A DNA stretch of 64,000 nt from Platanthera guangdongensis (Eukaryota; Streptophyta; Magnoliopsida; Asparagales; Orchidaceae). How positions within the stretch are numbered: position 1 is the first letter of the stretch; each line of letters begins with the position of its first letter. Position numbers and translations under genes: made by a program. The notes below the pieces were generated by a model that saw nothing but the letters and a program-made list of their open reading frames with translations, did no database searches and was not told the origin of the DNA. The stretch is from assembly GCA_039583875.1 (NCBI GenBank), contig CM077150.1, forward strand, positions 178,874,375 through 178,938,374. The letters are read 5' to 3'. Shown here one piece after another: positions 18,845 to 63,369 of the stretch.

Positions 18845-20078
18845 GATTCGACTCGATTATTCTAGCGTTGACACCAAGCACGTGTTTTAATCATTCCGCA
18901 AACGTACAGCACAACAAGCGGCAAAGTTAACGATTTTTTTGGAGGGAAATAACAGTAGTAGAAGAGGAAAGAAATGCAAGCGCTAACTATACGACCATTT
19001 AACTTAATTGCATGAGTAAATGTTAACAGCAGGGGAGTAGAGGGGTATACATACGGGTGATTTCCCAGTGCAGCGGAGATTCCACGGGATTTTGGGGGTC
19101 GGCTGGAAGAGTTGGTGGCTAAGGTTTATTTTTTTTAGGAGGTGGCTGGTTCGGGTAGGTAAAACAGGGGAAGGAGGGAACAGAGGAGGTGGCTGGTGCT
19201 GGAAAAGTTTAGGGTAGATAAAACAGGGGATGGGGAAATAAAAAGAAATGGCTCGGAGAACTTGAGGAGGAGGGTGAGAGGTGCCGGAAGCTCGCGATCA
19301 GTCGGCCGGAAACTAGAATCGGTGGACGAGGTGGTGGTCGGAGCAGAGGCACTGCGGCTTCGCTAGTACAGGCGGGGAAAACAGAGGTCGGGATAGTTGC
19401 GATCGGCGACTCCGGCTCGAACGCAGTCGACAAAGGCCGGTTGTGGTTGGGCTGCCACCGGAAGGCTCACCGGAGGCTATTCTTCACCGGAAGGCTCGCC
19501 GGAGAGGCGCGAGGAAGGGGACAGGCGGAACGGGCGGAAAAGGGTTCGCTGGATAGGGGAAATCGGCGCTGACAGGAGGTCACGCCGGTTTTCCCTTTTT
19601 TCCAGTCTACCGTCTCGCCCGGTGAATGAGCAATTTAATAGGAGGAAAATTTTGGTTTCAATCAACTGGGCAATTGATAATATGATAAATGGGTGGGGGG
19701 GGGGTTCAATGCCATGAATAAGGAAGGGGGTTTTGGAAATCCAAGAGGTTTTAAATTTTAACTCTCGAATCAATTCTGATTTAATGATATAACATTAAAT
19801 CAGGAATTGAAACTTTTCTCATGCAATTAAATTAGTGTCGCATAAAATATTGTCGCGCCTGCATCCTAACACCTTAGACTACCAGACCTCTTTTATTAAT
19901 GGTCATGTTGGCCGGTCAAACAAACAAGCCTTAACATTAAAATTGAAAGTGTCATACAATGACAACAACACATGTACGAATACAACACCCATAATGATAA
20001 CAAAAGTATTTTAAATAAAATAAAACACACACACACAAGATGAGCATAGCTCATCCGGATGCGACCATGGATGCGTCA

Positions 20079-24095: not shown

Positions 24096-25351
24096 GTTTC
24101 ACTAATTACCCTGTTCTATGTAATGATTTTTTTGTAAAATGTGTTAATAGCTGGAAATGGACGTGAGTGGATCTGGTTCATCCAGTGTCCAATCTAGGAT
24201 TGATCCAGGTTGGAAGTATGTGTGTCAGACATTTGTCACTAATAAAAATGATTTAATTTACATTTTATGTGAGAAAGTCATAAATGATGGAATTTATCGT
24301 TCGAAACATCTAGTGGGAGGATTTAGAAATACCAAAGTTTGTCTCAAATGTCCACAGCACGTAAGGACAGAAATTCAAGATTATATGGAAAAGAAAATGG
24401 CTGTAAACAATACAGAAAAAACAAGCATTCCCGGACTTTGCAGATATGGATACCTTTGAAAGCGATGAGTATATGGATAACATCAGTGCAAAGATTCATG
24501 GATGCGGTCCAAGCGGTGCGCCTAAAAAGTCTAGGACCGATAGATGTTTTTTTTGCATCTAATATTGAGAAGAAAATGAAACAAAAGGTCAACATAAGCA
24601 AATGAAGCAAACTTCAATCAATGAGACGTGTAAGAAGAAACTTAGAGGGAGGGCTTGCAAGCATATAGCTCAAGGGATGTATGATGCAGCTATTCCTTTT
24701 AATGTGGTTACATACCCTAGTTTTGCAGTGATGATAGAATCTGTTGGACAGTTTGGGGTTGTACTGAAACCACCTAGTTACAATGAAGTTCGCGTACCTT
24801 TGTTGAATAATGAAGTAAGTGAAGTCTGGAAGATGATGAACTATGAGAATGAGTGGAGGTTGTTTGAATGTTCTATCATGACAGACAGATGGACAGATAA
24901 GAAATAGAGAACTATTATAAAATTTTGGTAAATTCACCGAAAGTTACATTTTTCCTGAAATTTGTTGATGCATCTGATTACGCGAAGACTGCAGAGAGGA
25001 TGTTTGAATTGCTTGATAGAGTAGTGGAACGTGTTGGAGAGGCCAATGTTGTTCAAGTTGCTACTGATAGTGCAAGCAATAATGTACTAGCAGGTAAATA
25101 TATCGTTAATCATCTTCTTTTAATATTTATTTAATTTTAATGGCATATATTGACTATGAATGTGTTTATTATGAAATAGGAAAATTATTGGAAGCAAAAC
25201 GGCCAAATTTATATTGGACATCGTGTGTCTCTCATTGCATCGACTTAATATTGGAGGATATTGGAAAGATGTCTAGCATTAGTAGAACAATTAAAAGAAC
25301 AATGAGCGTCAATAGTTATATTTATGTTTGGCTTGAACTAGTCAACATGCT

Positions 25352-26014
25352 TGTTGATGCACGAAAACGGACAGGGAGTCGGTCACCACCAGCTAACGGT
25401 TCGAACACCGGGGAATAGGGAAGGAAAGGAGGAGACTGTCGACTAATCGGTTACTAGCGGTCGCGGCTAAAGGGCAGAAAAGAGGAGGGGGCCGCTGGCA
25501 GCGGCAACAGCAGAGTTCGCCCGCCGCGGCTTGAATGCCACTCTTGCGGCGGGCTTTCCTTTACTTCAAAATGAGACAGGTACAACAAGTAAAAGAAGAA
25601 GCCGGCCGGGCTACAAGCCGCAATACACTAGACTTGAGACCGCAGCTCTTAACAGGCGAGCTCCTGGATCCCAGTCACGGTGTCTTGGGGAGTGCACCCT
25701 CCCCCTATTTATAGGCTCGGGGGCCTGCCCAAACGGGCAGGGCTAAAATTACCGGCTGCCCGGGGTACAGGAGAACCGGGCAGAGGTGAGGGGAAGCAAA
25801 AGAGAAAGAAACAAGAAAGGAGGGAAGCCGCGCGGCCTGGCGGATTCCTCCTGGCGAGCTGACGGCTGGGGCCTTGGGCCTCGTCGCTGAGCAGGGTCGG
25901 CACTGGCAGCGGCCTGACATGGAGACCGCCCGGCTTGGAGGCTTGGCGGCTTGAGTAAGCAGGCCGCCCGGTCTGGAAAACTGCGCGGGCAGGTCGCGGA
26001 TTCCGGGCTTATCA
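25352..26014 (-). repeat. 3' LTR of element T
   Basis: Plus-strand ends TGTTGATGCACG and GGGCTTATCA. Contains a minus-strand TATAAATA box at 25706-25713. Rich in CCGCCCGG/CCGCGCGG motifs. The small frames in both LTRs are identical and not genes. Confidence 0.95.
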
Positions 26015-26030
26015 TAATCCCCGCACATTT
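26015..26030 (-). promoter_or_regulatory. Putative polypurine tract of element T
   Basis: The minus strand reads GTGCGGGGATTA directly before the LTR start TGATAAGCC. Modest in length but in the right position. Confidence 0.45.
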
Positions 26031-26096
26031 TTAAGTTTGCAGAAAACTTCGAAAATGTTGAACTAAGCCGGAGACCGCGACTGCTTCATCGTCGTC

Positions 26097-26104
26097 TATA
26101 AAAT
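26097..26104 (+). promoter_or_regulatory. TATA box of antisense gene 1
   Basis: TATAAAAT on the plus strand, 99 bp before the ATG at 26203 and just inside the LTR. It gives the antisense coiled-coil gene a promoter of its own. Confidence 0.55.
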
Positions 26105-26202
26105 CCCCTGACTCTTGACATTCTTCAGGATTCCTGCCAAGCACGGGTCGCTACTCGCCACTTGCGGTTAGGATTTTGCAAGCCGACGCGATTTCTTTAG
26201 CG

Positions 26203-28209
26203 ATGGATGTGATGTCGTCGATGCTAGCCCGCAACAAGAAACCGACAGAAACGAAGCAGAGCCGGAGCGAGAATTCGAATGATTCTGCCCGGCAGACCGC
26301 CAAGAAGAACGAGAAGCCGGAGACAACAGCGGCTTCTGGACCTGAAAAGAGGCCGACAGAGATGGTCGGCGGACCATCGCAGGCCGCAGCCGACCCCAAA
26401 GCGGTTTCGAAAGCTGCTCCACTGCAAACCGGAGATGCCAAATCCTTTGACGTGACTTTCTCCCCATCAGGAGAACCACTACTAAAGATCGCTGGGACGG
26501 AGGAGAAGAGTGTTGATTCTGGGAAACCGACCGAACTGCCGAGCAAGGTCGACTTAATCGTCGTGGACGACAACGAGCCGGAGAAGGCGCTGGAAGCCGA
26601 GCGGACTGAAAAGGTGTCCGGCTCCCTGAAACGGCGGAAGGAAAGGAGCGAAAACCTTGAAGAAAGGATGAAGAAGAAAATGAGGAAGCTGCACGCCAGA
26701 AACCGGAATATCTCTGAGAAGACCGGCGCGGACAGTCTTCAGCACAGGCCGCACGAGAAGGAGGTGCCCGAGAACCCGCTCACACCGGAGTGCAAGCCGA
26801 GCGAACTGGAGGGTACACCTGCGCCTAGCGATTCGCTGAGCGAGCTCCTGAAGGGCATGGAGGCTCTCCAGCGGCAAGACGCGCTATTGTCGACACCAGC
26901 GGCGTCTGAGGAGGTTGACCGCCCCGACATCAAGGTTATTGGGGAGAAGCCTGGCGAACCGGCTTCCGCGGCTTCTGAAGGAGCCGAGAAACTGAAGCTC
27001 CGCGAGAAGATGGAGGAGATGAAGAAACTAATCGCCAATAAGCCGGTGGAGACCGCACATCCATTACTGCAAGGTAAACACCGGGACGTTAGGCGAATTG
27101 TTAAATTCTACAAGTCGCGGTCAAGGAAGAAGGGGGCGAATATAATATTAAATCCGCCAGCCAGCTTTTTCCTGACCACGGCTCAACTGAAAAGCCGAAA
27201 GGAAACCGAGCGGCTATGGAAAGATAAGCTGAAGAGGATAGATCCTGAGCGGCTCAGGCGGCCAGTGATTAAAATTCATACCGCGGCCTCTGGAGGAGAT
27301 AAACATCAAACCGGCGGTCTTATCCTACCGATTTCCTTACAAGAAGGTCGCAACAATCCGGCTGAACCTGACTGCGGTTTGTCTTCTGCAGGTGCACCGG
27401 AGACCGCGATGAAACCGGGCGACTTGACCGCGTTTATATCTACGCTGCCTCCGCCAAGTGTTCGTCAGAAGGAGATGGCCGACTTCCAGAAGGAGGTCGG
27501 CTCGCTGCAGGCGGCTTTGACTGCGGCCACCGAAACTTTGCGGATTAAGGACGAAGAGAAGCGGGTTGCCCAGGAGGCTGCGGAAGCAAGGATCCAAGAG
27601 TTGCAAACCACCCTGGAACAAGAGACCGCCAGGTGGCAAACTGCGCTTGAACAGGAAACCGCGAGGTTGAAGACGGCAATGGAACAAGAGACCGTCAGGC
27701 TCCAGGCCGCGATGAAGGAAGAGACCGCGAGGCTCCAGACCGCAATGGAAACCGCTGAGGCGAAGATTGCCGAGATGCAGGTCACCTTGGAACAGGAAAG
27801 GGCGGAGAAGTACTTGCTGATGGCCGCGCGGCTGGAAGGAGACAAAGAGCAGATCCCGGATGCTGAAGGCGGCGAAAAACAAGACCGGCCGGCGGAGACC
27901 GGCGGGGAACAGCGGCCTGCACCGCCAACTCTTGGAGAGTTGCCGGTAACTAGCCGCCCGGCCTCTGGCGAGACTTCGCATCCGCCGGGGGCCGCGGCGC
28001 CTAACCAGGTCGCTGCTCCAAGCGGTCTGGGGGCCCAGGCGGTCCACATGATACCGTTTGCGAGAGTTGAGCGCGACGCTGCGCGAATTCATCGGTCTCT
28101 GCATGCGCTTCATAATCTGATTAGCCAGGTGTACGTTGCGATTGTGCAGACCGGTGAACAGGTCGCGCACATGGGACGAGACAGGCCGGAAGACGACAAA
28201 CGATCCTGA
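26203..28209 (+). CDS. Antisense gene 1 of element T: 668-aa coiled-coil protein
   Basis: An uninterrupted frame from ATG 26203 (MDVMSSMLARNKK) to TGA 28207-28209, antisense to gag. The first 230 residues are charged and low in complexity. A basic segment (SLKRRKERSENLEERMKKK) lies near residue 150, possibly a nuclear signal, and a second basic segment near residue 310 (KFYKSRSRKKGANI). Residues about 430-540 are a coiled coil with an 11-residue repeat of the type TALEQETARLK, five to six copies. The C-terminus is Pro/Gly rich then basic. No catalytic family recognised. A GT at 27074 and AG at 27391 could define a 318-nt in-frame optional intron. Extra and antisense ORFs are known in Tat-lineage elements; this protein's function is unknown. 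Confidence 0.7.
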   Translation: MDVMSSMLARNKKPTETKQSRSENSNDSARQTAKKNEKPETTAASGPEKRPTEMVGGPSQAAADPKAVSKAAPLQTGDAKSFDVTFSPSGEPLLKIAGTEEKSVDSGKPTELPSKVDLIVVDDNEPEKALEAERTEKVSGSLKRRKERSENLEERMKKKMRKLHARNRNISEKTGADSLQHRPHEKEVPENPLTPECKPSELEGTPAPSDSLSELLKGMEALQRQDALLSTPAASEEVDRPDIKVIGEKPGEPASAASEGAEKLKLREKMEEMKKLIANKPVETAHPLLQGKHRDVRRIVKFYKSRSRKKGANIILNPPASFFLTTAQLKSRKETERLWKDKLKRIDPERLRRPVIKIHTAASGGDKHQTGGLILPISLQEGRNNPAEPDCGLSSAGAPETAMKPGDLTAFISTLPPPSVRQKEMADFQKEVGSLQAALTAATETLRIKDEEKRVAQEAAEARIQELQTTLEQETARWQTALEQETARLKTAMEQETVRLQAAMKEETARLQTAMETAEAKIAEMQVTLEQERAEKYLLMAARLEGDKEQIPDAEGGEKQDRPAETGGEQRPAPPTLGELPVTSRPASGETSHPPGAAAPNQVAAPSGLGAQAVHMIPFARVERDAARIHRSLHALHNLISQVYVAIVQTGEQVAHMGRDRPEDDKRS

Positions 28210-28664
28210 GCGACTTGAGAGACCTAAGCCGCGCGGACATTCGCATATATTGTGTTGTAATATATATTTTTTCTCTGGATGTTGGACAATTTGATTGCTG
28301 TAAACTGTTGTATTCTATTATGCTGCGAACTGAATGCGGCTTATGCGGCTTGAATAATCCACATGTTTGCTGCTTTGTTCTGAGAAATTTTAAGTTTAGT
28401 ATAGTAGCCGCGCGGTCTGGCGAACAGAGCGCCGGCTTGAATAATTGATATCCACATGATTCGCCATAGAATTTTCTAAGTGCAGGGAAGTAGCCGCTCG
28501 GACTGACGGACTAAAAGGCGGCTTGATCACTAAGCTGATCTGCACTTCCAGGGGCTTAGGCCGCGCGGCGTGACGACTAGCCGCGATTTGACATGGGCAC
28601 TGTAGCATCACGGGTTTTCTATAAATAGCGCAGACCCCGTTGGATTCTTCACAAATCAAGAAGG
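28210..28664 (+). other. Spacer between the two antisense genes
   Basis: Non-coding, with several CCGCGCGG-type motifs (for example near 28407 and 28560) and the promoter of antisense gene 2 at its right end. Confidence 0.6.
28620..28627 (+). promoter_or_regulatory. TATA box of antisense gene 2
   Basis: TATAAATA 38 bp before the ATG at 28665, so the predicted 5' leader is very short. Confidence 0.6.
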
Positions 28665-30460
28665 ATGCGGGCTAAGTCCAAATCGTCGCGGTCTGACAAG
28701 GCCACAGCCGTCAGGACAGACGCGGCCTCCGCCTTCTACTCAGCTGACCACAAGGAATGCCGGCTTACAAAAGCCGAGCTGGATTCCTTTGTCGAGAAAC
28801 ACATGCAAGGAAGCCCGCTGACCGCGCGGCTTCCTAGGCAGGATGAGCGGATCAACTCTTCCAATGCTAACCAGATCGCGGTCCCCATTGACCATTTCGA
28901 CTGCGGGTTCAGCTTCCCGGTCTTGCTAGAGGCCGTAGCGGTCTTTGACCACTATGGAGTTGTGCCCGGACAACTCCCCCCCAACTCGATAGCCGCGATA
29001 TACGGCTTCATTTCTTATCTGCGGTCAGAAAGAGTCCGATTCTCCATGAGGCTCTTCCGAGAGTGCTTCTCGGTGCGGTCTATCCCGGATTCCGGGACAA
29101 AGATCTTCCGGGGGCACCTCTACTTCGGCTGCCGAGGGCTGAAGGTAGTCAACCTGGCCAACAAGATCGCGAACTGGCCGGAGCGGTTTCTGATCTTCGA
29201 GGGCAACTTGGGGTTGCTGCCGACCGACCCCCAAATCCGCGAAGAAGCCGCCTTCGGCAGCAGCGGCTTGGACGGCAAGGAGAAGGAGATCTTCGACTTC
29301 TTCAGGGGCGAGCGGCTTGACGTGAACTACTACATCCCGCTGCTGCCGTCCCTTGTTGGAATTGAGGCGGAAGAGAGTAAGCTACAAACTGGCCGAACTG
29401 CATTGCTAGCCGCGCGGCCTGATATCTAACATTGCTTCTATCTTTGCAGCTGCTTTGGCGGTCCCGCTGAACAAGCCGCAGACGCCGGGCGGCTTGACCC
29501 TCACACAAAGAGAAAAGAGGGCGAAGCGGGTCAAGCCGGCGCGGGCTGTGGAGGAGGAGTCGGACTCCTCTGGGGAGTTCATGCTGCAAGGAACCGGCAG
29601 CAGCCTGAAGGACGTCCATGGCGAACCGGCCTTGCGGTGGAGTCCGGATGGCAAGTCGGTGACGATCTCCACCGCCCTCCCCTACTGGGGAGCTGAAGAA
29701 GTAAGCCGCCATGCAAGCGCGGTTGGCGGCGCGCTGTACGGCAAGCGCAACTTGAGGGCTATGCGACGAGTTCCTCCAGACGACCTGCCGCGGCTAGCCG
29801 CGCAAGTCGGCGCGAGGAGCTTCGTGGCAAGTCACTTCATGGGGCTTGCCTACAAGGAGCTGATGAAAGAGAACAGCGGCCTGAAAACACGGTTAGGCGA
29901 ACAGCAAGAAGAGAACAAGCGATTTAAAGAGAAGGAGGCGGTAAGTAATTACCAATACCCGCGCGGTTAGAATTATGTAACCGCGCGACCTTACCTTCAC
30001 CTTTGCTTTGCAGGAAATGTACAACCCCGCCAACCCGATCTTCCAAGACCAGGTCTTCCCCCAACTCGTCCAAGGGATCGACGGAGCGCTTAACCGCCTC
30101 CGGGACATTGGCGGCTTGGCCACCGGCTTCACCGACTTCACATGCGCCGACATCTACCCTTCCCTGAAGGAGCAGGTGGCCGACGTCTACAAGTCGATCA
30201 AGGGCAAGGCCAAAGTCGCGGAAGAAGTCGGCGAGGTGGCGGGAGAAGCCGTGGAAGAGGTCGGTCAGGGAAGCCGGAGCCCGCACACGTCTCCAGAGTC
30301 CGGCGGCCAAGAGTCGGAGACCGCGCGGCCTGACTCGACATCTTCTGATGGTTCAGCGAGCTCCGCGACTAGCAGTGGGTATTCCTTATCATCTGTCGAT
30401 GTTGGCGATGACAGTGATTTGGATGCTCCTGCGACTAAGAAGCTCAAACCGGACGATTAG
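28665..30460 (+). CDS. Antisense gene 2 of element T: three exons, 549-aa protein with plant transposon-type domain
   Basis: Exons 28665-29376, 29450-29940 and 30014-30460. Both introns (73 nt each) have GT...AG borders (GTAAGC...TTTGCAG and GTAAGT...TTTGCAG), and the exons join in frame (712, 491 and 447 nt; 549 codons plus stop). Exon 1 has a globular region (IDHFDCGFSFPVLLEAVAVF, HYGVVPGQLPPNSIAAIYGF) that by eye resembles the putative gypsy-type transposon domain (PF04195 style) of plant LTR elements. Exon 2 is basic and ends in a short coiled coil (KENSGLKTRLGEQQEENKRF). Exon 3 ends in a Ser/Asp-rich acidic tail with KKLKPDD. Function unknown; a DNA- or chromatin-associated role is only a guess. 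No frame damage is visible. Confidence 0.72.
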
Positions 30461-31922
30461 AAAATTTTATAACTTGGTTTTGTATTTTGAACTTTTTTGA
30501 AATCGGCGGCATTTTTTGTAACCGCGCGATTAAAGTTTTTGTAACACTTATTGACATAGTAATGAAGGCATTTTTACCTTACTCTTTGTTGCATCTTACT
30601 TTTCTTACTTGAATAAGTCCGCGCGGTCTCAGTTTAGCTTCCGATTTAAAATATATAAGTATGTAAACCGGCTGAGTTTGCGCTGCGACTTCATCAAAGC
30701 TATCCGCAAGAGAGAGACATTTCCCTGCGGTTTATACCGGAGTGCACGTCGACGAAAAGCCGAGCGGCTAATAATGTAAACCGCAATTTTTCCTTGATGA
30801 ATTATTCAACATTATCTGCTGGAAGAGCTTGATTGCCGCGGCTTGCTCATATATAAGCCGTGACCGCTAAGCCGCGCGGTCTCTTGTCGCAGTCGGCAAA
30901 CATCCATAACATTGAAATAATAGATTGCGGCTAGGGCAAACTCTGAAGCGAATTACCCGTTTGATTAAAGGAACAAGAATTGAGAAACAAGCTTCGGCAG
31001 ATCAATATTCAGGAATTAAGTGCCAGAAGACAGGTCGGGCGACCTCTTTTTCATATGAATAACAAACCGGCAATTGATATACATAAGCCGAATAAGATAC
31101 TGAATAGCGGATAGGTGAATAAAGTCGGCCGAGTTCCCAAATATATTAATGATGATCCGGCAGGCAGGAACAGGAAAGTTAAAAAATTTAAGCCGGAATA
31201 TCAAACCGGGCGGCTTGTGTAAATAATTATAAAACCTGCACAGGCCCCTAAATAAAACCGCAAGGCAGCGGATAGGCACGTGTTGTCCTGCAAAAATAGG
31301 TGAAGACAGGCACTTATGTGTCGATGTGGGCAGGTGCGTGTAGCATTGCTTTCCTCACAAAGAACACATAAGCGAGATCGAAATTCTTAAAATCCATGAC
31401 CAATGTCAAGCAGAACAAGTACGCAACGTCTCCGACTGAGGTCAAGCAGGACAAGTACGCAATGTCTGCGACCGAGGTCAAGCGGGACAAGTACGTAAAG
31501 CCTGTCTGTGACTGAAGTCATGCGGAAAACCCACTACACATCTGCTACTGAAGTCAAGCAGGACAAGTACGTAAAGCCTATCTGTGACTGAAGTCAAGCG
31601 GGACAAGTACGTAATGCCTATCTGTGACTGAAGTCAAGCAGGATGTGGAGGGCTTAAGAATTCGAAAGGGGCTCTTGCCCCTACATGCATGCACATAGGC
31701 ATAAAGAGGTAAAGCTAAAAATAAGCTTTAAATGAAAATGTAACATTTGCATGATGTTAAGGAAGTGATAAAGGATATATATCTGCAATTTTATCATGCC
31801 TTATAGAAAGAGAGAGATATGTTATGTATTACTCTGAACATAAGCACTTTTTACTATAGAAAGAGAGAGGAATAACTGCTTGATCCATTGAGCAAGAAAT
31901 GAAAGATTGCCTTTGAGAGTCA
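30461..31922. other. Non-coding interior of element T where pol would be
   Basis: AT-rich segments with scattered CCGCGCGG motifs (30605, 30870) and a tandem repeat at 31405-31640. No RT, protease or integrase remnant found in any frame. Confidence 0.6.
31405..31640. repeat. Tandem repeat, about 36-40 bp unit, six copies
   Basis: Units begin GTCAAGCRGGACAAGTACG and end CTGTGACTGA or similar; the fourth unit is more diverged. Confidence 0.85.
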
Positions 31923-33032
31923 CTAAATGAAATATTCCTGCAGCTTTCCAGCTCTTACAAGTTGATTAGCCAATTCCTTGAGAGCTCTGCAATCTTCTGT
32001 TAGATGGCCAATATCCTTATGATATTTGCAAAAAAGCTGCTCGTGCCGATACTTGATTTTGGATTTCATGCGCCGAGGCTTCTTGAACTCAGGCATTCCC
32101 TGAATGATTATCAAAAGATCTTCCATGGGAATTTTGAACTTAACATACTTACCTGAATATTTTTCATACTTTGGAGTTTTATCCCGGAGAATATAAGGAG
32201 ACTTGCAATATTCAACTTGCAAAACATCTTGTGAGGAAATAGATTGTTGTTGACTAGAAGTCCCTTGGGATTGCTTAGCCATTTGTTTCAGAAATGAAAC
32301 ATAACCCTTATTTGCTTCTTCGCCTATTATGAATGTATTAACTATATCAATAAGATCTCCGAAGCTTTTGGGATATTTTGTGGTGAGCTTGAATTTTAAT
32401 GGGCCTTCCTGAAGGGCATTTATGAAAGCATGCAAGTAATAGTCTTGATGGACGTTACAAATATCCAAAACCTCCTTTTGAAACCGATCAAGAAAATCTG
32501 AATTAGACTCGTGAATTCCTTGCTTGATTCGGAAGAGAGCTCCAACGTCTCTTTTCCGCTTCCTGTAAATAGCGAATCTGGAAATAAATTGACTTCGAAG
32601 ATCCTTAAAGCTGGTTACTGATCGAGGTGGGAGGCTATAAAACCATTCTCTTGCAATATTGCCAAAGGATATAACAAAGAGCTTGCATTTTACTCCATTT
32701 GACACTTTTCTTAGTGAAATAGCTGATTCAAAAGCTTGCAAATGAGAAAACGGATCATCACATGCAGAATACTCCGGGAGACATGGTTCTCTGAAATCAT
32801 CGGAAACAGTATCCCACCGAATTCGATTAGTGAAAGGAGAAGGGGTTTCTTCTTCGTCCTCATAAAGAGGTTCATTTGCAACAGATTCTATTCCACGCTC
32901 AACACTATTTGCAAAAATTTCCTTACGAGGGTCAACAACTTCACTATCCAAATACGAGCAATCCTGCACTTCTGAGAGATTCGTAATAACTGAGATGCGG
33001 CTCGATGTACCATGACTCTTTGCAGGATTCAT
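31923..33032 (-). CDS. gag: Gag of Tat-like element T
   Basis: 369 residues from ATG 33032 (MNPAKSHGTSS) to TAG 31923-31925, with no internal stop. Residues about 80-240 form a retrotransposon gag domain (DDPFSHLQAFESAISL, AREWFYSLPPRSVTSFKDL, LDRFQKEVLDICNVHQ). The C-terminus has the Cys/His motif CKYHKDIGHLTEDC followed by LKELANQLVRAGKLQEY. This arrangement is characteristic of the Tat lineage (Tat, Ogre, Retand type), where it follows gag and precedes protease. Here the frame stops and no pol follows. The protein could package the element RNA, with enzymes from a full-length relative. Confidence 0.88.
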   Translation of the reverse strand: MNPAKSHGTSSRISVITNLSEVQDCSYLDSEVVDPRKEIFANSVERGIESVANEPLYEDEEETPSPFTNRIRWDTVSDDFREPCLPEYSACDDPFSHLQAFESAISLRKVSNGVKCKLFVISFGNIAREWFYSLPPRSVTSFKDLRSQFISRFAIYRKRKRDVGALFRIKQGIHESNSDFLDRFQKEVLDICNVHQDYYLHAFINALQEGPLKFKLTTKYPKSFGDLIDIVNTFIIGEEANKGYVSFLKQMAKQSQGTSSQQQSISSQDVLQVEYCKSPYILRDKTPKYEKYSGKYVKFKIPMEDLLIIIQGMPEFKKPRRMKSKIKYRHEQLFCKYHKDIGHLTEDCRALKELANQLVRAGKLQEYFI

Positions 33033-33308
33033 CCTGAAAAGAGAGAAATAGCCGAACTTTTACAAGAAACCGCAGAAGAGCGGCGGCTTAACGAGGCGGC
33101 TAGACGATTCTGCAAACCGATAAGAAAACCGGCTGAAAAGAGAGCGGATAGAATGCCAGGTTCTACCGTGCGGGAGGCGGGCTGAAAGCCGTAGCCGGCG
33201 GAATCGCGGCTTGCTAGACAGGTCGCCGAACCCTAGAAGTTAGAGCGGTCTGGATCCCTAGACCGCTGATTTCATCGATTAGTCGAGATCTGAAGGTCGC
33301 GTGTTAAC

Positions 33309-33971
33309 TGTTGATGCACGAAAACGGACAGGGAGTCGGTCACCACCAGCTAACGGTTCGAACACCGGGGAATAGGGAAGGAAAGGAGGAGACTGTCGAC
33401 TAATCGGTTACTAGCGGTCGCGGCTAAAGGGCAGAAAAGAGGAGGGGGCCGCTGGCAGCGGCAACAGCAGAGTTCGCCCGCCGCGGCTTGAATGCCACTC
33501 TTGCGGCGGGCTTTCCTTTACTTCAAAATGAGACAGGTACAACAAGTAAAAGAAGAAGCCGGCCGGGCTACAAGCCGCAATACACTAGACTTGAGACCGC
33601 AGCTCTTAACAGGCGAGCTCCTGGATCCCAGTCACGGTGTCTTGGGGAGTGCACCCTCCCCCTATTTATAGGCTCGGGGGCCTGCCCAAACGGGCAGGGC
33701 TAAAATTACCGGCTGCCCGGGGTACAGGAGAACCGGGCAGAGGTGAGGGGAAGCAAAAGAGAAAGAAACAAGAAAGGAGGGAAGCCGCGCGGCCTGGCGG
33801 ATTCCTCCTGGCGAGCTGACGGCTGGGGCCTTGGGCCTCGTCGCTGAGCAGGGTCGGCACTGGCAGCGGCCTGACATGGAGACCGCCCGGCTTGGAGGCT
33901 TGGCGGCTTGAGTAAGCAGGCCGCCCGGTCTGGAAAACTGCGCGGGCAGGTCGCGGATTCCGGGCTTATCA
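33309..33971 (-). repeat. 5' LTR of element T
   Basis: Same sequence as 25352-26014 over all 663 bp as far as I can read. Minus-strand TATAAATA at 33663-33670. Confidence 0.95.
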
Positions 33972-36328
33972 ATGCTAAGGAGCTTCACAGGACAAGTGGA
34001 GCTTGTTAGACCTGCTGTTACTAAGTTTGCGACTTCATTTCTTGTTCTTCAGCGCATTCATAAGCAGAGGACAAATCTAAGGAATATGTTCACTTCACCT
34101 GAGTGGACATCAAGCAAGTGAGCAAAGAAAACAGGAGGTCAGCGAGTACAGAGCATTATATACATGGTCTCTTTCTGGAGTACTATTGTGTACATTTTGA
34201 AGATTTTTGGACCTTTACTTCGGGTACTAAGATTGGTAGATAGATGGGGAGAAAAGACCGGCTATGGGTTATATCTATGAGCTTATGGATAGAGCAAAAG
34301 AGACAATCATGAACTCTTTCAATGGGAAAGAGGAAAAATCTAAAGAAGTTTTGCGATTGTCGACAGGAGATGGGAAAATCAGATTCATCGACCATTGCAT
34401 GTGGCGGCTCATTATTTAAATCCGGAATTCTTTATTCAAACCCTGAAATTGCATTAGATGGAGAAGTCATGAGAGGTTTATATCAAACAATGCAAAAGCT
34501 CATTCCAAGTCCTGAAATTCAAAATAAAATTATGCACCAACTAAGTTTATATAGAAATGCTAAGGATTATTTGGAATGCAATTTGCAGTTCGGCATAGAA
34601 AAACATCCTCAGGTTAGTTAATTAAATATTATTCCAAATTTCAAATAAACAATTTATTTACTAAGAATGATTAATTAATTTCTTGATATTCATTTTTTAG
34701 GGCAGCTGAATGGTAGCAATCATATGGAGCTGATACTCCCGATCTGACTAAATTTGTTGTAAAGGTTTTAAGTCTCACTTGCAGTTCATCCGGATGTGAG
34801 CGCAACTGGAGTTTTTTTGAACATGTATGAATTTTTTTGAACAAATATATAAATATTAATTATATCATTACATGATTAATTATTTATTTGTTATGTTGCA
34901 GGTCCATAGCAAAAAAAGAAATCAACTAGCACAGCAACGCCTAAATGATTTAGTATTTATAAAATACAATCGTGTCATGCGTTGGTGATATGATTCACGT
35001 GATCGTATTGATCCGATCTCGCTGAAAGATATTAACGATAGCAATGAATGGTTGATGGGAAGAGTGGAGGAATATGAGGAGGTTGAGCGGGATGACGATA
35101 TAGTTTTTGATGACGAATTATTGACCTGAGGTGCAGTAGCAAGGGCCAGTGGAGTAGAAGAAGACATCTACTCCACGCGCTTATCCAAAGGGAAGATGAT
35201 AGCTGACAAGCGGAGCACATCTAAGAAGAAGGCACCTATTCCAACAATACGTGAAGATGATGTTGCGGATGAAGAAGAAGCTGAGTACAATGAAGAAGAA
35301 GATTTTATTGAAGAAGACGAAACCTTAATTGATTCAGACGATGAGTAATTAATACTTAATGATTATGAGATCACGACCGAGGAAAAATTGAAAACCATGT
35401 GATGACGTGATGTTATGTTATTTTCTTGCACATCAGTTTAGAGTTTATGATTGCTGACTTAGTAGCTTATGTTTGTTTTTGGTGCGAAAAATTACAATGT
35501 TGACTTGGCAGATTATGATTGTTGACTTGGTTAATTTATTTATGTTGTTATTTTTATTATGTTGCCTTCAAAAACTGATCTCATTTTATTATGCTTGAAT
35601 GTTTGATTTTAATACGTCTTTTGTGTTTTATGGAGGGATTTGGTCATTCATTGGCTGAGTGTAAGCCATGTTATATTGTTAATTCAAGAGGGGTTTATCA
35701 TTGATATTAAAAAGGTACAAAGATTTTTACCTTAAATTTGCATATCTCTGTCTAATGTTTTATATTACATGTTGTAGTTTTTATTTGATTTCTAGTTATA
35801 CTTTGTATGAATCAATTATGACTATCATGTATTTATACCATTTCTCACGTGTTTAGATAGAATATTGGAAAATATGAGCTTGAATGTGTAGAGTGAATCC
35901 ATTAGTTTATTTTCTTTGTATGTATACAAATTTTCGTTCATGTTTTTGTTATTTCAAATTGTTTATCTTTTATAATCTGAGTGAAAAGTCCACTATAAAT
36001 TGTTTATCAATTGAATGTGTACTTCTATTCAAAATGATTTGAAGTTGTACTATAAGCTTAACTATAGATGAATGAAAAGAACCTAAAAGTTTCTTTCTAA
36101 TAGTATTAGTGAATTGGAATGAGCAACTGACTTGCGTAAATAAAATTTAATATAGTACAACGGATTTAATCAACTTGAAAACTATACAAAATGAGAACAG
36201 AGCTAGTTGTGTATGTTTGCTTTCACATGTCCCTATAAAAAAGTCATAAGATGGGTGTTTTCCTTGTGCGTGCTTCCTCAACAAACCAAAATTCAAAAAG
36301 GCTCTTGTGCGTGCTTCCTCAATTTCAG

Positions 36329-37934: not shown

Positions 37935-39207
37935 TGGTGCAGCCCGGTACCGGGGGATGTCGTTAGCTAGCTCTCTACTATAGACGATTCGACTCGCTTA
38001 TTCTAGCGTTGGCAACAAGCACGTGTTTTAATTATGCCGCAAACGGACAGCACAACAAGCGGCAAATTCAAGAATTTTTTGGAGGGAAATAACAGTAGTA
38101 GAAGATGAAAGAAATGCAAGCGCTAACTATACGACCATTTAACTTAACTGCATGAGTAAATGTTAACAGCAGGGGAGCAGAGGGGTATACATGCAGGGGA
38201 TTTCCCAGGGAAGCGGAGATTCCACGGAATTTTGGGGGTTGGCTGGAAGAGTTGATGGCTAAGGTTTATTTTTTTAGGAGGTGGTTGGTTTGGGTAGGTA
38301 AAACAGGGGAAGGAGGGAACAGAGGAGGTGGCTGGTGGTGGAAAAGTTTAGGGTAGATAAAACAGAGGATGGGGAAATAAAAAGAAATGGCTAGGAGAAC
38401 TTGCGAATGGGGGTGAGAGGTGCCAGAATCTCACGATCAGTCGGCCGGAAACTGGAATCGGTGGAGGAGGTTGGTGGTCGGAGCGGAGGCATTGCGGCTT
38501 CGCTGGTACAGGCGCGGAAAAATGAGGTCGGGATAGTTGCGGTCGGCGACTCCGACTCGATCGCAGTCGACAAAGGCCGATCGTGGCTGGGCTGCCTCCG
38601 GAAGGCTCACCGGAGGTTATTCTTCACTGGAAGGCTCATCGGAGAGGCGCGAGGAAGGCGTCGGGCGGAAAAGGGTTCGCTGGATAGGGGAAATCGGCGT
38701 TGACAGGAGGTCGCGCCGGTTTTCCCTTTTTTTCCAGTCTACCGTCTGGATTGGTGGATGAGCAGTTTAATAGGAGAAAAATTTCGGTTTCAATCAATTG
38801 GGCAATTGATAATATGATAAACGGGGGGGTTCAATGCAATGAAAAGAAAGGGAGTTTTGGAAATCCAAGAGGTTTTAAATTTTAACTCCCAAATCAATTC
38901 TGATTTAATTATATAATATTAAATCATGAATTGAAACTTTTCTCATGCAATTAAATTAGTGTCGCGTAAAATATTGTCGCGCCTGCATCCTAACATCTTA
39001 CACTACCAGACCTCTTTTATTAATGGTCATGTTGGTCGGTCAAACCAATGAGCCTTAACATTAAAATTGAAAATGTGATACAATGACAACAACACACGTA
39101 CGATAACACACGTACGAATACAACACCCATAATGAAAACAAAAGTATTTTAAAGAAAATAAAACACACACACACACAAGATGAGCATAGCTCATCCGGAT
39201 GCGACCA
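37935..39207 (-). repeat. 5' LTR of Gypsy B
   Basis: About 1.27 kb and homologous to the split LTR at 13589-20078. Starts TGGTGCAGCCC and ends GATGCGACCA on the plus strand; homology may reach 39215. Confidence 0.8.
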
Positions 39208-39215
39208 CGAATGCA

Positions 39216-41449: not shown

Positions 41450-41912
41450 GAGACGCGCGTTGGAAATGCGCGTTGGAAACGCGCGTCGGAAACGCAAACG
41501 CGCGTCGGAAACGCGCGTCGGAAACGCAAACGCGCGTCGGAAACGCGCGTCGGAAACGCAAACGCGCGTCGGAAACGCAAACGCGCGTCGGAAACGCAAA
41601 CGCGCGTCGGAAACGCAAACGCGCGTCGGAAACGCGCGTCGGAAACGCGCGTCGGAAACGCGCGTCGGAAACGCGCGTCGGAAACGCGCGTCGGAAACGC
41701 GCGTCGGAAACGCGCGTCGGAAACGCGCGTCGGAAACGCGCGTCGGAAACGCGCGTCGGAAACGCGCGTCGGAAACGCGCGTCGGAAACGCGCGTCGGAA
41801 ACGCGCGTCGGAAACGCGCGTCGGAAACGCGCGTCGGAAACGCGCGTCGGAAACGCGCGTCGGAAACGCGCGTCGGAAACGCGCGTCGGAAACGCGCATC
41901 GGAAACGCCAGG
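41450..41912. repeat. Tandem array of 13-bp unit GCGCGTCGGAAAC
   Basis: About 20 uninterrupted copies from 41630 to 41905, preceded by a mixed section with 13- and 19-bp units (extra GCAAAC). Because 3 x 13 is 39, all six frames stay open and give periodic Arg/Ala-rich peptides that are not genes. Confidence 0.95.
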
Positions 41913-42104: not shown

Positions 42105-42606
42105 GTACTTCTTTTTCTCTTCTTTTTCTTCTTCTTTTTCTTCTTTTAGGGTTTAGTTTGGTCCGCTCCCGATTCCCGCAGGTACTTCTTCTGGTACTTC
42201 TTCTTCTTCTCATTCTTCTTCTTCTTCTGGTACTTCTTCTTCTTCTTCTGGTACTTCTTCTTCTTGTAATTTTTCTTCTTCTTCTTCTGGTACTTCTTCT
42301 TCTTCTGGTACTTCTTCTTCTTCTGATACTTCTTCTTCTGGTACTTCTTCTTCTTCTGATACTTCTTCTTCTTCTGGTACTTCTTCTGGTACTTCTGGTT
42401 CTTCTTCTTCTGGTACTTCTTCTGGTACTTATTCTTCTTCTTCTTCTGGTACTTATTCTACTTCTTCTTCTGGTACTTCTTCTTCTTCTTCTGGTACTTC
42501 TTCTTCTGTTACTTATTCTTCTGGTACTTCTTCTTCTGGTACTTCTTCTTTTTCTGATACTTCTTCTTCTTCTGGAACTTCTTCTTCTGGTACTTCTTCT
42601 TCTAAA
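42105..42606. repeat. CTT/CTTCTGGTA microsatellite-like array
   Basis: About 500 bp of TTCTTCTTCTGGTACTTC-type simple sequence. The long Leu/Val-rich frame through it is an artefact. Confidence 0.93.
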
Positions 42607-51714: not shown

Positions 51715-52085
51715 TGTTAAAAGTAGCGAAAAGAAAAGAACAAGCGGATAGACTTTTGAATAATTGAAATTTTATTATCCAAAAAAGGTATCTATTACAA
51801 AGGTATGCCCTCCTTTATATAGAATGGAGGAGAGATGAGAGAATACAAATAAGAGATGTGGGACTATAATTTACAGGACTAAGCGGACTATACAAAACAA
51901 ACCGCACAAGCCGCGCGGTTAGACAGCAGGGCAAACCGCACGGCTACCACCAGAGAGGAAGAGAGACTGCCAGGGTAGACCGCCAGACCGCCCGGTCTCC
52001 AAGCCGGCTGAGACAAACCGCCAGACCGCGCGGTCTTCAACCCGCCAAGACAAACCGCCAGACCGCCCGGTCACCAACTTCAACA
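51715..52085 (-). repeat. 3' LTR of Copia D
   Basis: TGTTAAAAG and CTTCAACA ends on the plus strand. Minus-strand TATATAAA near 51813-51820. Contains AGACCGCCCGGTCT and AGACCGCGCGGTCT palindromes. Confidence 0.95.
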
Positions 52086-52099: not shown

Positions 52100-54872
52100 G
52101 GAGCATATATATCGATCATGCCCAGCTTGTCGCAGATGTGGAAAAAGGAAGCGGACACCGGCTTGGTGAAGACATCTGCCAACTCGTTGTCGGAAGTAAC
52201 AAATGGAGTGCAAATCTGTTTCTTCAATATTTCTTCCCGAATAAAATGACAGTCGACTTCTATGTGTTTTGTTCTCTTATGAAAGACCGGATTTTTGGAA
52301 ATGTGTATCGCGGCCTTATTGTCACAGAACATAGGAAGAGGATAGTTGTAAACCTCTCCTAAGTCAAGCATGAGAGCCCACAACCACTTCAACTCACATG
52401 TAGTCGATGTCATGCAGCGATATTCCGCCTCTGCACTAGACCTGGAAACGATAGATTGTTTCTTGCTCTTCCAACTCACAAGATTGCCTCCAACAAATGT
52501 GCAGAAACCTGAAGTCGATTTGCGGTCCCCTTTGTCATCCGCATAGCTTGAATCAGAGTACGCTTCAACCCTAAGGTGACCATTTTTCTGAAATAGGAGT
52601 CCTTTCCCTGGAGCAGCTTTAATATACTCTAATATCCTCAGAGCAGATTGTAGATGACACTCCCTCGGAGCTTGCATGAACTGGCTCACCTTGCCAACAG
52701 CATAAGAGATGTCGGGTCTGGTTATCGTGAGATATATGAGCTTGCCCACCAGATGCCGGTATCTCGTAAGATCGGAGAGAAGAGGTGAGTCATCTGTCCA
52801 AGTTTTGTCTTCTCCAACAGCCATAGGACAACGTGCAGGTTTAGCACCAGTCAGTCCTGCCTCCTTTAAAAGATCAAGAGCATACTTCCGTTGTGAAAGG
52901 ACCATGGAGTTGGGCTTTCTAGAGATTTCAATCCCCAGAAAGTATTTCAGGGAGCCCATATCCTTTGTGACCAGATGTTGACGAATGTGTTTCTTGGTCA
53001 TCAATACCTCATCCTGGTCATCGCCAGTAAGAAGAATGTCATCAACATAAACCGCAAGAACAACAAGACCAGAGGCGGTTTTCCGAACAAACAAGGAGTG
53101 ATCTGCTGAGCTTCTTGTAAAACCAATGGCCGCAACAATGCTACTGAACTTGTCAAACAAGGCACGAGGACTCTGCTTGAGGCCATAGATAGCCTTCTTT
53201 AGCCGGCATACCCGTGTCTCCCCCTGAGCAACATACCCAGGAGGTTGCTCCATGTAAACATCCTCCTGCAGATCACCATAGAGGAAGGCATTCTTAACAT
53301 CTAGCTACGAGATGGGCCAATCCCTGTTGACAGCCACAGAGAGAAGAACTCGAATAGTGCTGAGACGAGCCACGGGAGAGAAAGTGTCAAAGTAATCAAT
53401 CCCATAAGTTTGGGTAAAACCCTTGGCAACCAGGCGAGCCTTATAACGATCCACACTGCCATCCGGGAGAAACTTCACCACGAAGACCCAGCGACAGCCA
53501 ACAACATCTGTGCCGAAAGGAGGAGGAACAAGGGTCCAGGTACCCCATTCAGTGAGAGTAGCAATCTCCTCATCCATGACAACTTTCCAATGAGGAATAG
53601 TAAGGGCCTCCTGGTAGGAACGGGGGGTGGCAGTGGCCGAGATAGCCAGGGCAAAAGCTCTGCGAGCAGGGGTAAGACGATCATAGGAAACAACTACAGC
53701 AAGCGGGTGTTGGGTACAGACCCGAACCCCTTTGCGAAGAGCAATCGGGAGGTCCAGGTCAGCAGGTGCCTCAGTATCCGGAGTATCCGTGGTGGAGAGA
53801 GCTGGCCCGGGAGTAGAGAGAGATGGCAGCGGAGTGGAGGGAGAAAATGGAGTAGAGGGTGGAGAGGGCGGAACAGCAGTGGGAGCAGAGGGAATGGATG
53901 GGTTGGTATGAGAAGTAGGATCAGGAGGAGTAGAAGAGGAAGCGGGGGAGAAGTAAGAGGCATTGGCAAAGAAGGTGACATCCGCAGAGACAAATTGCTT
54001 GCGGGTAACAGGGTCAAAGCAGCAATATCCTTTCTGAGTGGGAGAGTAGCCCAGAAAGACACATTTGGTGGCACGTGGTGAGAGTTTATCACGGGTGGCA
54101 GCGGGAGAGTGCACAAAAGCGGTGCACCCAAAGATGTGTAGAGGAAGAGGAAATGGATCCTTGTCTGGATAAAGAATGGAGAAGGGGGTTGCACCGTGGA
54201 GAACTGTGGAGGGAAGGCGATTGATAAGATAGCAGGAGAGGAGGACAGCATATCCCCAATAGGAGCGAGGAACATGCATTTGAGTCATCATAGTGCGAGC
54301 GACATCAAGGAGGTGACGGTTTTTGCGTTCCGCCACCCCATTTTGTTGGGAGGTGTAGACACAACTTGTTTGACGAATAACACCATGGTGAATACAAAAG
54401 GAGGAGAAGTCGTGGCTAAGATACTCCTTAGCATTGTCAGAACGAAGGAGTTTAATAGACGTATCAAACTGAGTCTTAACCATAGAATAAAAGGAGGTCC
54501 AAACAGAGAATAGCTCGGAGCGATCTTTGAGAAGATAAACCCACGTACATCGAGAGAAATCATCAATGAAGGTGACAAAATAGGAACTACCCCGACCGAT
54601 GGTGAGGTTAGGAGCGGGACCCCATATGTCAGAGTGAACGAGGTCGAACGGACGGGAAGAGCCCCGACTTTGCGTTGGGGGGAAGGATGAGCGGTGATGT
54701 TTGCCAAGTTGACATGCATCACAGTTTAGAGGAGGATGATGAGGAGGGAGGTGCGGCAGGAGCTGGCGGAGAATTCGGGGAGGAGCATGTCCAAGGCGAA
54801 GATGCCATTGGAGAAGATCTGTAGAGGAGGAGGAGAAGGCGGATAGAGCAGAAACGTTGTCGAGGAAGTAAA
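52093..54872 (-). pseudogene. pol: Copia D pol: pre-integrase, integrase, RT, RNase H (one stop)
   Basis: From the Gypsy E junction at 54872 one frame runs leftward with [26 protein letters not shown] and [14 protein letters not shown] (zinc region), [12 protein letters not shown] and [14 protein letters not shown] (integrase), then [16 protein letters not shown]. It ends at a TAG at 53305-53307, exactly where related proteins have Gln (WPIS-stop-LDVKNAF). After it the frame is open to 52093 with GYVAQGETRVCRLKKAIYGL, the AVYVDDILLTG catalytic box, RSSAEAEYRCMTSTTCELKW and KNPVFHKRTKHIEVDC. A single CAG-to-TAG change is the only coding defect here apart from Gypsy E. Confidence 0.93.
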
Positions 54873-61026: not shown

Positions 61027-61040
61027 GCCTCTGATACCAA
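61027..61040 (-). promoter_or_regulatory. Primer binding site of Gypsy E
   Basis: The minus strand reads TTTGGTATCAGAGG a few bases after the LTR end CTACACCA. Confidence 0.85.
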
Positions 61041-61042
61041 AT

Positions 61043-62209: not shown

Positions 62210-62214
62210 GTAGA

Positions 62215-62857
62215 GGTCATCACTCTCAGTCCCGGTAGCAATCGTCCGTTGGGAGTCCGGATCCTGAAAAGTACAAGAGCTAGGGGTGAATATGACAGAA
62301 CACCATAGTTGCTTGCATAAAGAAGTAACCGATAATAAATTGCACGGAAACGTGGGCACATAGAGGGTATCAGCCAGGCAGAGAGATGGAGTGACTTGAA
62401 CCGTGCCCATCCCATGGACCGGGGAGGGAGATCCATCAGCAACAATGACCGGGGGCAACTGAGCATGTGTGTCAAGAAGAGAGAAACATTGAGGATTGCC
62501 TGTCATATGATTGGTTGCACCAGAGTCGATGAGCCATCTTCCGCGAGTAACAACATGAGCACTACCAGAAGAGGTGACCACGGAGGCGGACAGGCTGGAG
62601 GAGGGGAAAGCCATGGAAGCAAGAGAGGAGCAAGCCGCGACGATAAGAACAAGCCACGAGAAGAGAAAAGAGCACCAAGCCGGGCGAACAGAAACAGGTC
62701 GGGCGGCTAGGAAGGCCGCTACCAAGAAGCAGAGCAAAGCAGAGGGAAAGAAGTCGCACGGCTTGAAAAAGTCGGGCGAACAGAGGAGAACAGGTCGCAC
62801 GGAAAAAGATGAGGCCGGCGCGACTAGCAAGCAGGAGCGGGTAGAAGGCAACAACAA
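62215..62857 (-). pseudogene. pol: Copia D N-terminal pol segment with protease
   Basis: A minus-strand frame with possible ATG at 62857. The first ~85 codons are hydrophobic and unlike gag. Then come GRWLIDSGATNHMTGNPQ (aspartic protease D-S-G), VIVADGSPSPVHGMG, LYVPTFPCNLLSVTSLCKQL and TIATGTESDDLY, which runs into Gypsy E. The domain continues at 54872 on the other side. An upstream protein that replaces gag is not evident. Confidence 0.8.
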
Positions 62858-63357: not shown

Positions 63358-63369
63358 CCTCTGATACCA
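63358..63369 (-). promoter_or_regulatory. Primer binding site of Copia D
   Basis: The minus strand reads TGGTATCAGAGG directly after the 5' LTR end. Confidence 0.9.

Follow-up and report, generated by a model that had tools for sequence, protein, structure and literature searches.

Why would an LTR retrotransposon that has no pol keep two genes on its antisense strand? The question is raised by the young element at positions 25352-33971 of the window (the whole 64,000-nucleotide stretch of Platanthera guangdongensis DNA analysed here), with gag on the minus strand and two genes, A and B, on the plus strand. Its two 663-bp LTRs, described earlier as without visible difference, proved 100% identical (3′ LTR, 25352-26014; 5′ LTR, 33309-33971; both minus strand), and the perfect ATGCT duplication reported with them is indeed present on both flanks (25347-25351 and 33972-33976). 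The internal region between the LTRs measures 7,294 bp. Joining the two flanks gave an open frame of 128 codons, of which 118 residues were tested and matched DUF659 (PF04937, E 1.2e-13), a domain associated with hAT transposases.

The gag gene is one open frame of 369 codons (31923-33032, minus strand) that matches PF03732 (E 4.8e-10); its C-terminal end has what we take to be a Tat-like appearance, and no solved structure was matched for it. Between the 5′ LTR and gag lies a leader (33033-33308, minus strand). The bases directly after the 5′ LTR do not begin with TGG, and no primer-binding site was identified there. As in the preliminary description, no pol was found in the element: neither pol nor remnants of it were detected in the interval between B and gag (30461-31922), where 10 of the 35 open frames of at least 30 codons were scanned and none carried a retroelement domain. 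This interval contains tandem repeats with units of about 36 and 40 bp (31398-31643).

Gene A (26203-28209, plus strand) is a single frame of 668 codons, whose product has basic stretches and a series of 11-residue repeats; 33-nt repeats are found in its DNA. Order-2 simulations of this stretch (1000 runs, all six frames considered) produced no open frame longer than 509 codons. We take the basic stretches to be NLS-like and further stretches to be coiled-coil-like. A Pfam scan of A returned no family above cut-off and no homologue was found at E 0.01 among 7,997 scored candidates, while diverged counterparts of A (A′) exist in the same genome. Gene B, also on the plus strand, consists of exon 1 (28665-29376), exon 2 (29450-29940) and exon 3 (30014-30460), separated by two predicted GT-AG introns of 73 nt each (29377-29449 and 29941-30013). 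Both genes had been described as undamaged, with 668 and 549 codons. This holds for A as it stands and for B only when the two predicted introns are removed; unspliced, B is three raw ATG frames of 254, 129 and 147 codons. The two genes were also said to lie each behind a TATA box, and TATA-like boxes are predicted on the plus strand at 26097-26103 and 28620-28626, in agreement with the 5′ ends noted earlier at about 26130 and 28650; the promoters ascribed to A and B on the strength of these boxes are putative. Exon 1 of B holds TRP28 (PF04195, E 1.7e-9), antisense to gag and the sole family that a Pfam scan detected in B. DNA binding has been predicted for TRP28 (PMC11963269), and for B it leans on this published prediction, since structure prediction of the TRP28 region failed (mean pLDDT 39).

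These features place the element, likely, in the Retand lineage of the Ty3/gypsy Tat group. A TRP28 antisense ORF lies before the 3′ LTR, the duplication is of 5 bp, and the LTR length of 663 bp compares with a survey range for Retand of 315-1,194 bp (PMC11963269). The internal region is just under the range of 7,380-12,869 bp given in the same survey, as expected for an element without pol. An antisense TRP28 gene between the position of pol and the 3′ LTR is likewise known from Retand, from Grande (gene23) and from RIRE2 (PMC11963269, PMC7264820), and the second antisense ORF and the tandem repeats are shared with Retand elements as well. The presence of antisense genes is therefore not strange in itself: antisense TRP28 genes were missing from only two of the 63 clusters analysed among Retand elements with recent activity (PMC11963269), and an older survey gave 23% of Retand elements (PMC6317226). 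What is supported of the preliminary interpretation is that A and B are retained and selected in copies without pol. Unlike the Retand elements described, the window family combines gag with the absence of any pol, and the two introns of its B are conserved. Because the published survey used reverse transcriptase as its anchor, it could not find a family of this kind (PMC11963269). Antisense regulatory genes near the 3′ LTR are also known from retroviruses, such as HBZ of HTLV-1 (mentioned in PMC11963269). The likeness is one of position, with no homology claimed; unlike HBZ, the window element has two antisense genes, one of them with introns, together with a motif array (see below).

Is the loss of pol peculiar to this copy? 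Further copies were chosen by LTR similarity (41 matches out of 3,160 candidates), for which reason LTR conservation is not comparable with that of the rest of the element. The gene order was the same, with no space for pol, in all 16 further copies read, and the distance from B to gag was 1.3-1.6 kb in these and in the window copy. The family thus has no pol, which must come from elsewhere, likely in trans. One of these copies (L017) has an LTR in common with a tandem neighbour, and neither its flanks nor those of L016 match as duplications.

Twelve further copies (11 whole, one in two pieces) were compared with the window copy in selection tests, the other four being used for layout only. 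Pooled pN/pS over these 13 copies, a measure that ignores the tree and takes in a frame-shifted B of one copy (L011), was 0.335 for A, 0.186 for B and 0.268 for gag; by pair, B ranged from 0.08 to 1.08, again with the L011 frame included. All three genes are under purifying selection, A and B comparably to gag. The splice sites of both B introns are intact in 13/13 copies, A is open in 9/13, and all length differences of A are multiples of three. The preliminary description had proposed this comparison and would have given way to copies lacking the two frames or showing them in neutral decay; the outcome favours it, the order of genes being unchanged in all 16 copies and the ratios, rounded, standing at 0.34 (A), 0.19 (B) and 0.27 (gag). 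Amplification of broken copies was considered as proof of trans action and rejected: seven of ten premature stops differ by a single C-to-T change from the codon seen in the other copies, and the sole stop position found more than once is shared by two copies that are not each other's nearest relatives. Regulation by antisense RNA has been proposed for such genes (PMC7264820), and the transcripts of A and B could act as RNA, through dsRNA or siRNA self-limitation, with the proteins incidental. Purifying selection on the protein sequence and the in-frame length changes of A make this a very improbable account, as does the occurrence on both strands of the motif to which we now turn.

The new observation of this analysis is a motif array. 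The half-site WRRCCG packs the LTRs, the leader and the A/B half of the element, but not gag, and is often paired as WRRCCGNNCGGYYW. Its sites are dispersed, lie on both strands and extend into coding sequence. Against synonymous shuffles that held amino acids, codon counts and junction dinucleotides constant, A has 28 sites where 11.8 are expected and spliced B has 23 where 6.2 are expected (0/2000 shuffles in each case), and gag has none, being free of GCGGYYW. The tandem repeats at 31398-31643 are also without motif sites. In the window, 12 paired sites fall in the element, five in the LTR of an unrelated Ty1/copia element and none in the other 54.6 kb. A reading of the paired site as an RNA hairpin or cruciform was rejected, matching arms being found in only 2/17. 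Could the excess be functionless, a mere outcome of base composition, of tandem duplication or of codon bias? The A/B half has a high GC content, A contains its 33-nt repeats, order-5 Markov simulations yield 3.0 paired sites (maximum 9) against the 12 of the element, and two copia control frames show a slight excess (4 vs 1.2; 3 vs 0.7). The excess survives both the synonymous shuffles and the removal of the repeats from A (22 vs 7.1), five of the seven other frames show none, and the sites are conserved between copies, all of which makes a functionless excess very improbable.

This conservation was assessed in the window copy and 11 whole copies, with sites defined on the window copy. The paired sites in A are kept in 12/12 (27203-27216) and 10/12 copies (27951-27964), and that in the A-B interval in 10/12 (28405-28418). 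Within B, one site occurs in the window copy only (28819-28832, 1/12), while those in intron 1 (29407-29420) and exon 3 (30318-30331) are kept in 8/12 and 11/12; intron 2 contains an imperfect paired site. Behind B, three sites are kept in 11/12 (30757-30770), 12/12 (30869-30882) and 12/12 copies (31203-31216). Overall, the dyads vary less than controls from the same features (P 0.0013) and less than CpG-matched controls (P 0.011). The seven non-coding dyads gave P 0.047 against CpG-matched controls, and the four coding dyads alone P 0.08-0.09. Four-fold sites within half-sites also vary less (A, P 0.002; B, P 0.011), and half-site retention is above the random mean in 11/11 copies. The motif is therefore conserved at the DNA level. 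The preliminary description had left the mechanism open; the array points to action on DNA or chromatin rather than RNA.

Such action might concern a later step of retrotransposition (nuclear import, the pre-integration complex or segregation), with the motif marking cDNA or integrated copies. The NLS-like and coiled-coil-like appearance that we presume for parts of A would suit this role, as would the spread of sites over both LTRs, the leader and the antisense half. Matches to Smc and to further domains connected with chromosomes have been reported for the antisense proteins of other members of the Retand lineage (PMC11963269). We nevertheless judge it improbable: gag, which is also part of the cDNA, has no sites, and the high density of sites within U3 and the short introns better fits control of a promoter or of chromatin. 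The 3′ LTR has three paired sites in its distal U3 (25825, 25923 and 25961), about 135-270 bp upstream of the TATA-like box before A. Those of the 5′ LTR (33782, 33880 and 33918) lie upstream of a sense TATA-like box at 33664.

The copia LTR with five paired sites (51715-52085, minus strand; the other LTR at 63370-63740) allows a further explanation, in which the motif is recognised by a transcription or chromatin factor of the host, both elements exploit this factor, and A and B do something else. Two unrelated LTR families share the paired site, which in each of them lies some 95-260 bp upstream of the TATA box in the LTR, and the cores of the sites have what we presume to be a GCC-box-like look. 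Against it, sites fill A and B, in coding sequence as well as introns, and are missing from gag. A common factor would not predict the shift of motif from one family to another with different A and B, and no paired site occurs in the 54.6 kb of the window outside both elements. We therefore regard a host factor as unlikely, though the least so of these alternatives. In a comparison of 22 LTRs, the copia dyads showed no higher conservation than the remainder of the LTR (P 0.72).

The shift of motif was seen in a pol-bearing relative (L027). A pol-bearing partner with the same LTR had been suggested; a relative was found, and its LTR is related, not the same. It has matches to reverse transcriptase, RNase H and integrase, with an RVT_3 match between RT-RNase H and integrase, and carries diverged A′ and B′. 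The promoter-proximal part of its LTR is conserved with the window family and the distal U3 is unalignable; the polypurine-tract side adjoining the 3′ LTR (26015-26054 of the window, minus strand) shares 36/40 bases. Its motif is RTCCGC, which differs from the WRRCCG of the window family and is unpaired. No paired sites were found in this relative, so that a reading of the motif by a dimer is not transferable to it. Its tandem repeats inflate its raw motif count, and its second A′ piece has no clear excess (3 vs 1.4; 133/1000). The co-divergence of motif and protein rests on one well-read pair of families. A decayed relative (L026) shows a tentative third motif, GCGAGA/GAGACG, with a weak coding test (GAGACG, 3 vs 1.0, 43/1000, in a frame with one stop; TCTCGC, 0 vs 0.7).

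The explanation that we favour, and consider reasonably probable, is that this likely Retand family without pol keeps gag, A and B, and that the A and B proteins bind the family-specific motif and keep their own LTR promoters active. The motif would be recognised by A, B or both, perhaps with a dimer on the paired sites, and binding would oppose silencing or activate U3 in the way that VANC proteins act for VANDAL transposons. Reverse transcriptase and integrase would be supplied in trans by relatives that have the LTR ends and the polypurine-tract side in common with this family. Loss of pol would be possible since relatives can lend it, whereas regulators that match the family motif could not be borrowed from relatives with another motif. 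The introns of B would withstand retrotransposition, since the genomic RNA carries their complement and is not spliced there, and production of B would then depend entirely on an antisense mRNA that is transcribed separately and spliced. In Grande, the antisense protein is nuclear and its gene has its own promoter (PMC11963269, PMC7264820).

In Arabidopsis, VANC/VANDAL likewise couples an accessory gene with many copies of a short family-specific motif (PMC5735166), and such a motif is found here at high density. VANDALs are Mu-like DNA transposons, whereas the window element is an LTR element. Their motifs lie mainly in non-coding DNA, where they often form tandem repeats and share one orientation, whereas those described here are dispersed, on both strands and also in coding sequence. 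Binding and demethylation by VANC were shown by experiment (PMC5735166), whereas the function proposed here is inferred from sequence. Related VANDAL families have other motifs, and the VANC6 motif is found outside VANDAL too, in the unrelated transposon AT9TSD1 (PMC5735166). TR-GAGs are also LTR elements with gag and without pol, presumably mobilised by an autonomous relative; they have a single ORF (PMC8704663), whereas the window family adds two antisense genes under selection. The accounts of Retand in PMC11963269 and PMC7264820 describe, as far as they go, no motif array. A wider form of the explanation, possible rather than probable in our estimate, is that Retand families tell self from other: A and B would read a DNA code private to the family (in LTRs, spacers, introns and A/B codons) and license their own LTRs against silencing, protein and code would change together as families diverge, pol would be droppable where the readers of the code are not, and the copia family would have picked up the code and ride along.

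The role of antisense TRP28 genes in Retand is an acknowledged open question (PMC11963269, PMC7264820). A family without pol in which these genes are under selection means that they matter apart from pol, and the conserved family-specific motif is a concrete candidate ligand for the antisense proteins. If the explanation is true, LTR retrotransposons have evolved their own equivalent of VANC anti-silencing, one whose target sites lie within coding sequence, and motif recognition would partly determine how many transposable element families in a genome are under independent control.

The LTR retrotransposon at 25352-33971, likely of the Retand lineage (Tat), has its sense strand on the minus strand and spans 8,620 bp, with two identical 663-bp LTRs. 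By sequence comparison ATGCT flanks it on both sides, and an open frame matching DUF659 appears when the two flanks are rejoined. The gag gene (PF03732, 369 aa) is on the minus strand, adjoining the 5′ LTR. A scan of 10 of the 35 open frames between B and gag revealed no pol domain. Two antisense genes lie on the plus strand: A (668 aa), downstream of a TATA-like box at 26097, and B, downstream of one at 28620. B has a TRP28/Transposase_28 domain and measures 549 aa once two predicted 73-nt GT-AG introns are taken out. P0008, a database protein of P. zijinensis with 46% identity to B over 71% of the query, is continuous over both predicted junctions and lacks the intron sequence in a by-eye comparison, which makes the intron positions probably old. 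All database protein relatives of B were from Platanthera orchids (7/7 in one search, 2/2 in another). Elsewhere in the window we observed direct repeats of ~1.2 kb (18845-20074 and 37986-39214; 90% identical, 19 kb apart), as well as adjoining low-complexity tandem arrays at 41453-41908 (13-bp units) and 42185-42603 (15-24-bp units), which open long frames in several phases.

An LTR search of the P. guangdongensis genome (4.25 Gb) gave 41 listed matches from 3,160 candidates. Sixteen further copies (12, plus 4 more) are arranged LTR-A-B-gag-LTR over the parts that were read, and the B-to-gag distance is 1.3-1.6 kb in all 16, too short to leave a place for pol. Fourteen of them are whole; in L020/L021 a nested insert separates A from B, and in L026 an interruption falls within A. 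The LTR pairs of 12 whole copies, including that of the window, are 0-5 substitutions apart (L014 additionally shows two indels), so the family has spread recently in its pol-less form. Loci L022-L025, read in part, are two older, damaged copies hosting inserted family members, one in B exon 2 and one in gag. At L017 a second leader comes after the LTR, as if two tandem copies had an LTR in common, and at L016 an extra partial LTR follows the copy.

Selection was assessed on 13 copies including that of the window. The frames are open to the end in 9/13 copies for A, 8/13 for spliced B and 11/13 for gag, and the length of A is a multiple of three in all 13. A, B and gag had pooled pN/pS values of 0.335 (codon bootstrap 0.26-0.43), 0.186 (0.14-0.24) and 0.268 (0.20-0.37), and median pairwise dN/dS values of 0.31, 0.14 and 0.24, respectively, for pairs with dS > 0.03. 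Both predicted B introns keep GTAA...CAG in 13/13 copies, and read-through into intron 1, the most variable stretch (0.130 vs 0.018-0.066 in other features), meets a stop in every copy. A single C-to-T change accounts for each of 7 of the 10 premature stops; these are scattered, as expected if copies decay after insertion. From the pN/pS values, the kept splice sites and the decay-type stops, the A and B proteins are maintained along the transposing lineage.

In word counts, the LTRs and the A/B half proved rich in AAGCCGC, AGACCGC and similar words. The half-site reads WRRCCG, frequently with a C after it; the paired form, WRRCCGNNCGGYYW, consists of two facing half-sites with a 2-base spacer. 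Counting one LTR, the element has 12 paired sites and at most 4 with any other spacer (0 to 20), and Markov models of the element of order 2, 3, 4 and 5 gave 0.1, 0.2, 0.6 and 3.0 (maxima 2, 2, 4 and 9; 300 runs each). Five more fall in the 371-bp Ty1/copia LTR at 51715-52085; the other 54,638 bases of the window have none, despite holding 144 half-sites. In the LTRs of the element and the copia alike, paired sites lie upstream of the sense TATA-like box, at a distance of ~95-260 bp. In the window copy, each B intron contains CCGCGCGG. A third TATA-like box was seen on the element's plus strand at 30850-30882, accompanied by paired sites (30757 and 30869) and with no long frame behind it; this region may hold a remnant gene or give a non-coding transcript. 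A hairpin reading of the paired site was rejected, the arms being able to pair in only 2/17 sites. Since half-sites also occur on both strands (88 and 66), the symmetry suggests reading by two protein subunits.

When amino acids and codon counts were held constant, 11.8 occurrences of the word GCGGYYW, searched on either strand, were expected in A and 6.2 in B; the observed numbers are 28 and 23, reached in 0/2000 shuffles each. With junction dinucleotides also fixed, the expectations were 13.7 and 7.3 (0/300 each). The excess in A persists without its repeats (22 vs 7.1), and gag has no GCGGYYW on either strand. Five of seven control frames elsewhere in the window showed no excess, and two copia frames showed a small one (4 vs 1.2, 18/1000; 3 vs 0.7, 13/1000). 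Neither coding nor composition accounts for the motif excess in A and B.

The motif is also conserved at the DNA level. Across 12 aligned whole copies, dyad positions were less variable than their flanks (0.022 vs 0.072), and 11/12 dyads were kept in at least 8/12 copies, the one at 28819 being found in the window copy only. Compared with randomly chosen places of the same feature, P was 0.0013 for the 12 dyads (CpG-matched 0.011, 11 dyads), 0.004 for non-coding dyads alone (CpG-matched 0.047) and 0.09 for the four coding dyads alone (CpG-matched 0.08). Four-fold degenerate sites were less variable inside half-sites than elsewhere in both A (0.032 vs 0.095, P 0.002) and B (0.041 vs 0.094, P 0.011). 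Half-site positions were less variable in 7/7 non-coding features, or 6/7 with G and C only (intron 2 reversed). When each copy's own substitutions were placed at random, window half-sites were retained above the random-placement mean in 11/11 copies and above all 100 randomisations in 6/11; totals per copy were 145-160 (154 in the window).

In a pol-bearing relative (L027/L030, contig C12) the minus strand matches integrase, RNase H and RT, spread over several frames, with a weak protease match below cut-off. The relative has antisense counterparts of both genes: B′, with tblastn identity of 55%, 38% and 29% in successive parts, and A′, with two matched stretches at 35% and 37.5%. Its 751-bp LTR shares its first 17 bases with the window LTR; the promoter-proximal part is 77% identical and 36/40 bases agree on the polypurine-tract side, and distal U3 likeness is no better than shuffled (47% vs 45%, maximum 51%). 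RTCCGC/RRCCGC counts are 13/2 in its LTR vs 2/12 in the window LTR, and 50/11 in its antisense half, some of them from tandem repeats, vs 14/92 in the internal region of the window element; its pol has 2/1. RTCCGC is in synonymous-level excess in B′ exon 1 (7 vs 2.3, 0/1000), the first A′ piece (7 vs 2.1, 3/1000) and a neighbouring element's B (8 vs 2.8, 5/1000). RRCCGC is not in excess in these three, the reverse of the window family. In the second A′ piece neither word is clearly in excess (RTCCGC 3 vs 1.4; RRCCGC 7 vs 4.3), and CCGNNCGG is absent from the relative's antisense half. The relative's motif thus differs from that of the window family, as judged from one family pair. Part of another pol-bearing relative, with the RTCCGC motif in its B gene, lies in opposite orientation at L030:1-5625. 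At L026:8501-9103 a third, decayed element has a B-like exon (28% identity) enriched in GCGAGA/GAGACG words, perhaps a further family motif.

The copia LTRs that carry the paired motif (51715-52085 and 63370-63740) are 99.5% identical. The leader/gag side of this copia (62210-63369) is likewise motif-rich, and a Ty3 element is nested within the copia (LTRs 54870-56038 and 61040-62209, 99.2% identical). The copia LTR family, 98-100% alike at 40 places scored of 259 candidates, is young. Its five dyads are each kept in 18-22 of 22 LTRs; no selection on them was seen, because they are no less variable than the rest of the LTR (0.0189 vs 0.0149, P 0.72).

The proposed reading of the motif by A and B would parallel the VANC anti-silencing proteins of Arabidopsis VANDAL transposons. 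These are reported to bind a short motif that occurs densely within their own family; VANC6 has a different one, which is shared in one case by the unrelated transposon AT9TSD1 (PMC5735166). Here too the motif is dense in its own family, a relative has another, and an unrelated element shares it. Antisense TRP28 genes (PF04195) and tandem repeats are described as usual in Retand (PMC11963269), and movement of a TR-GAG element as observed (PMC8704663). No description of pol-less Retand families, TRP28-gene introns or motif arrays was found in the literature searched. The anatomy, the family, selection, the motif, its conservation and the motif difference in one family pair are established; for the motif, A and B, a recognition system would be the shortest account. 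The antisense proteins would read the family's motif on DNA, keeping its LTRs and the adjacent A and B promoters active or unsilenced. The antisense introns would persist because, by established splicing rules, the genomic RNA is their complement. Enzymes compatible with the LTR ends may be available from relatives, the presumed source of pol, and regulators for the family's motif would not be; pol may therefore have been dispensable and lost, while A and B stayed.
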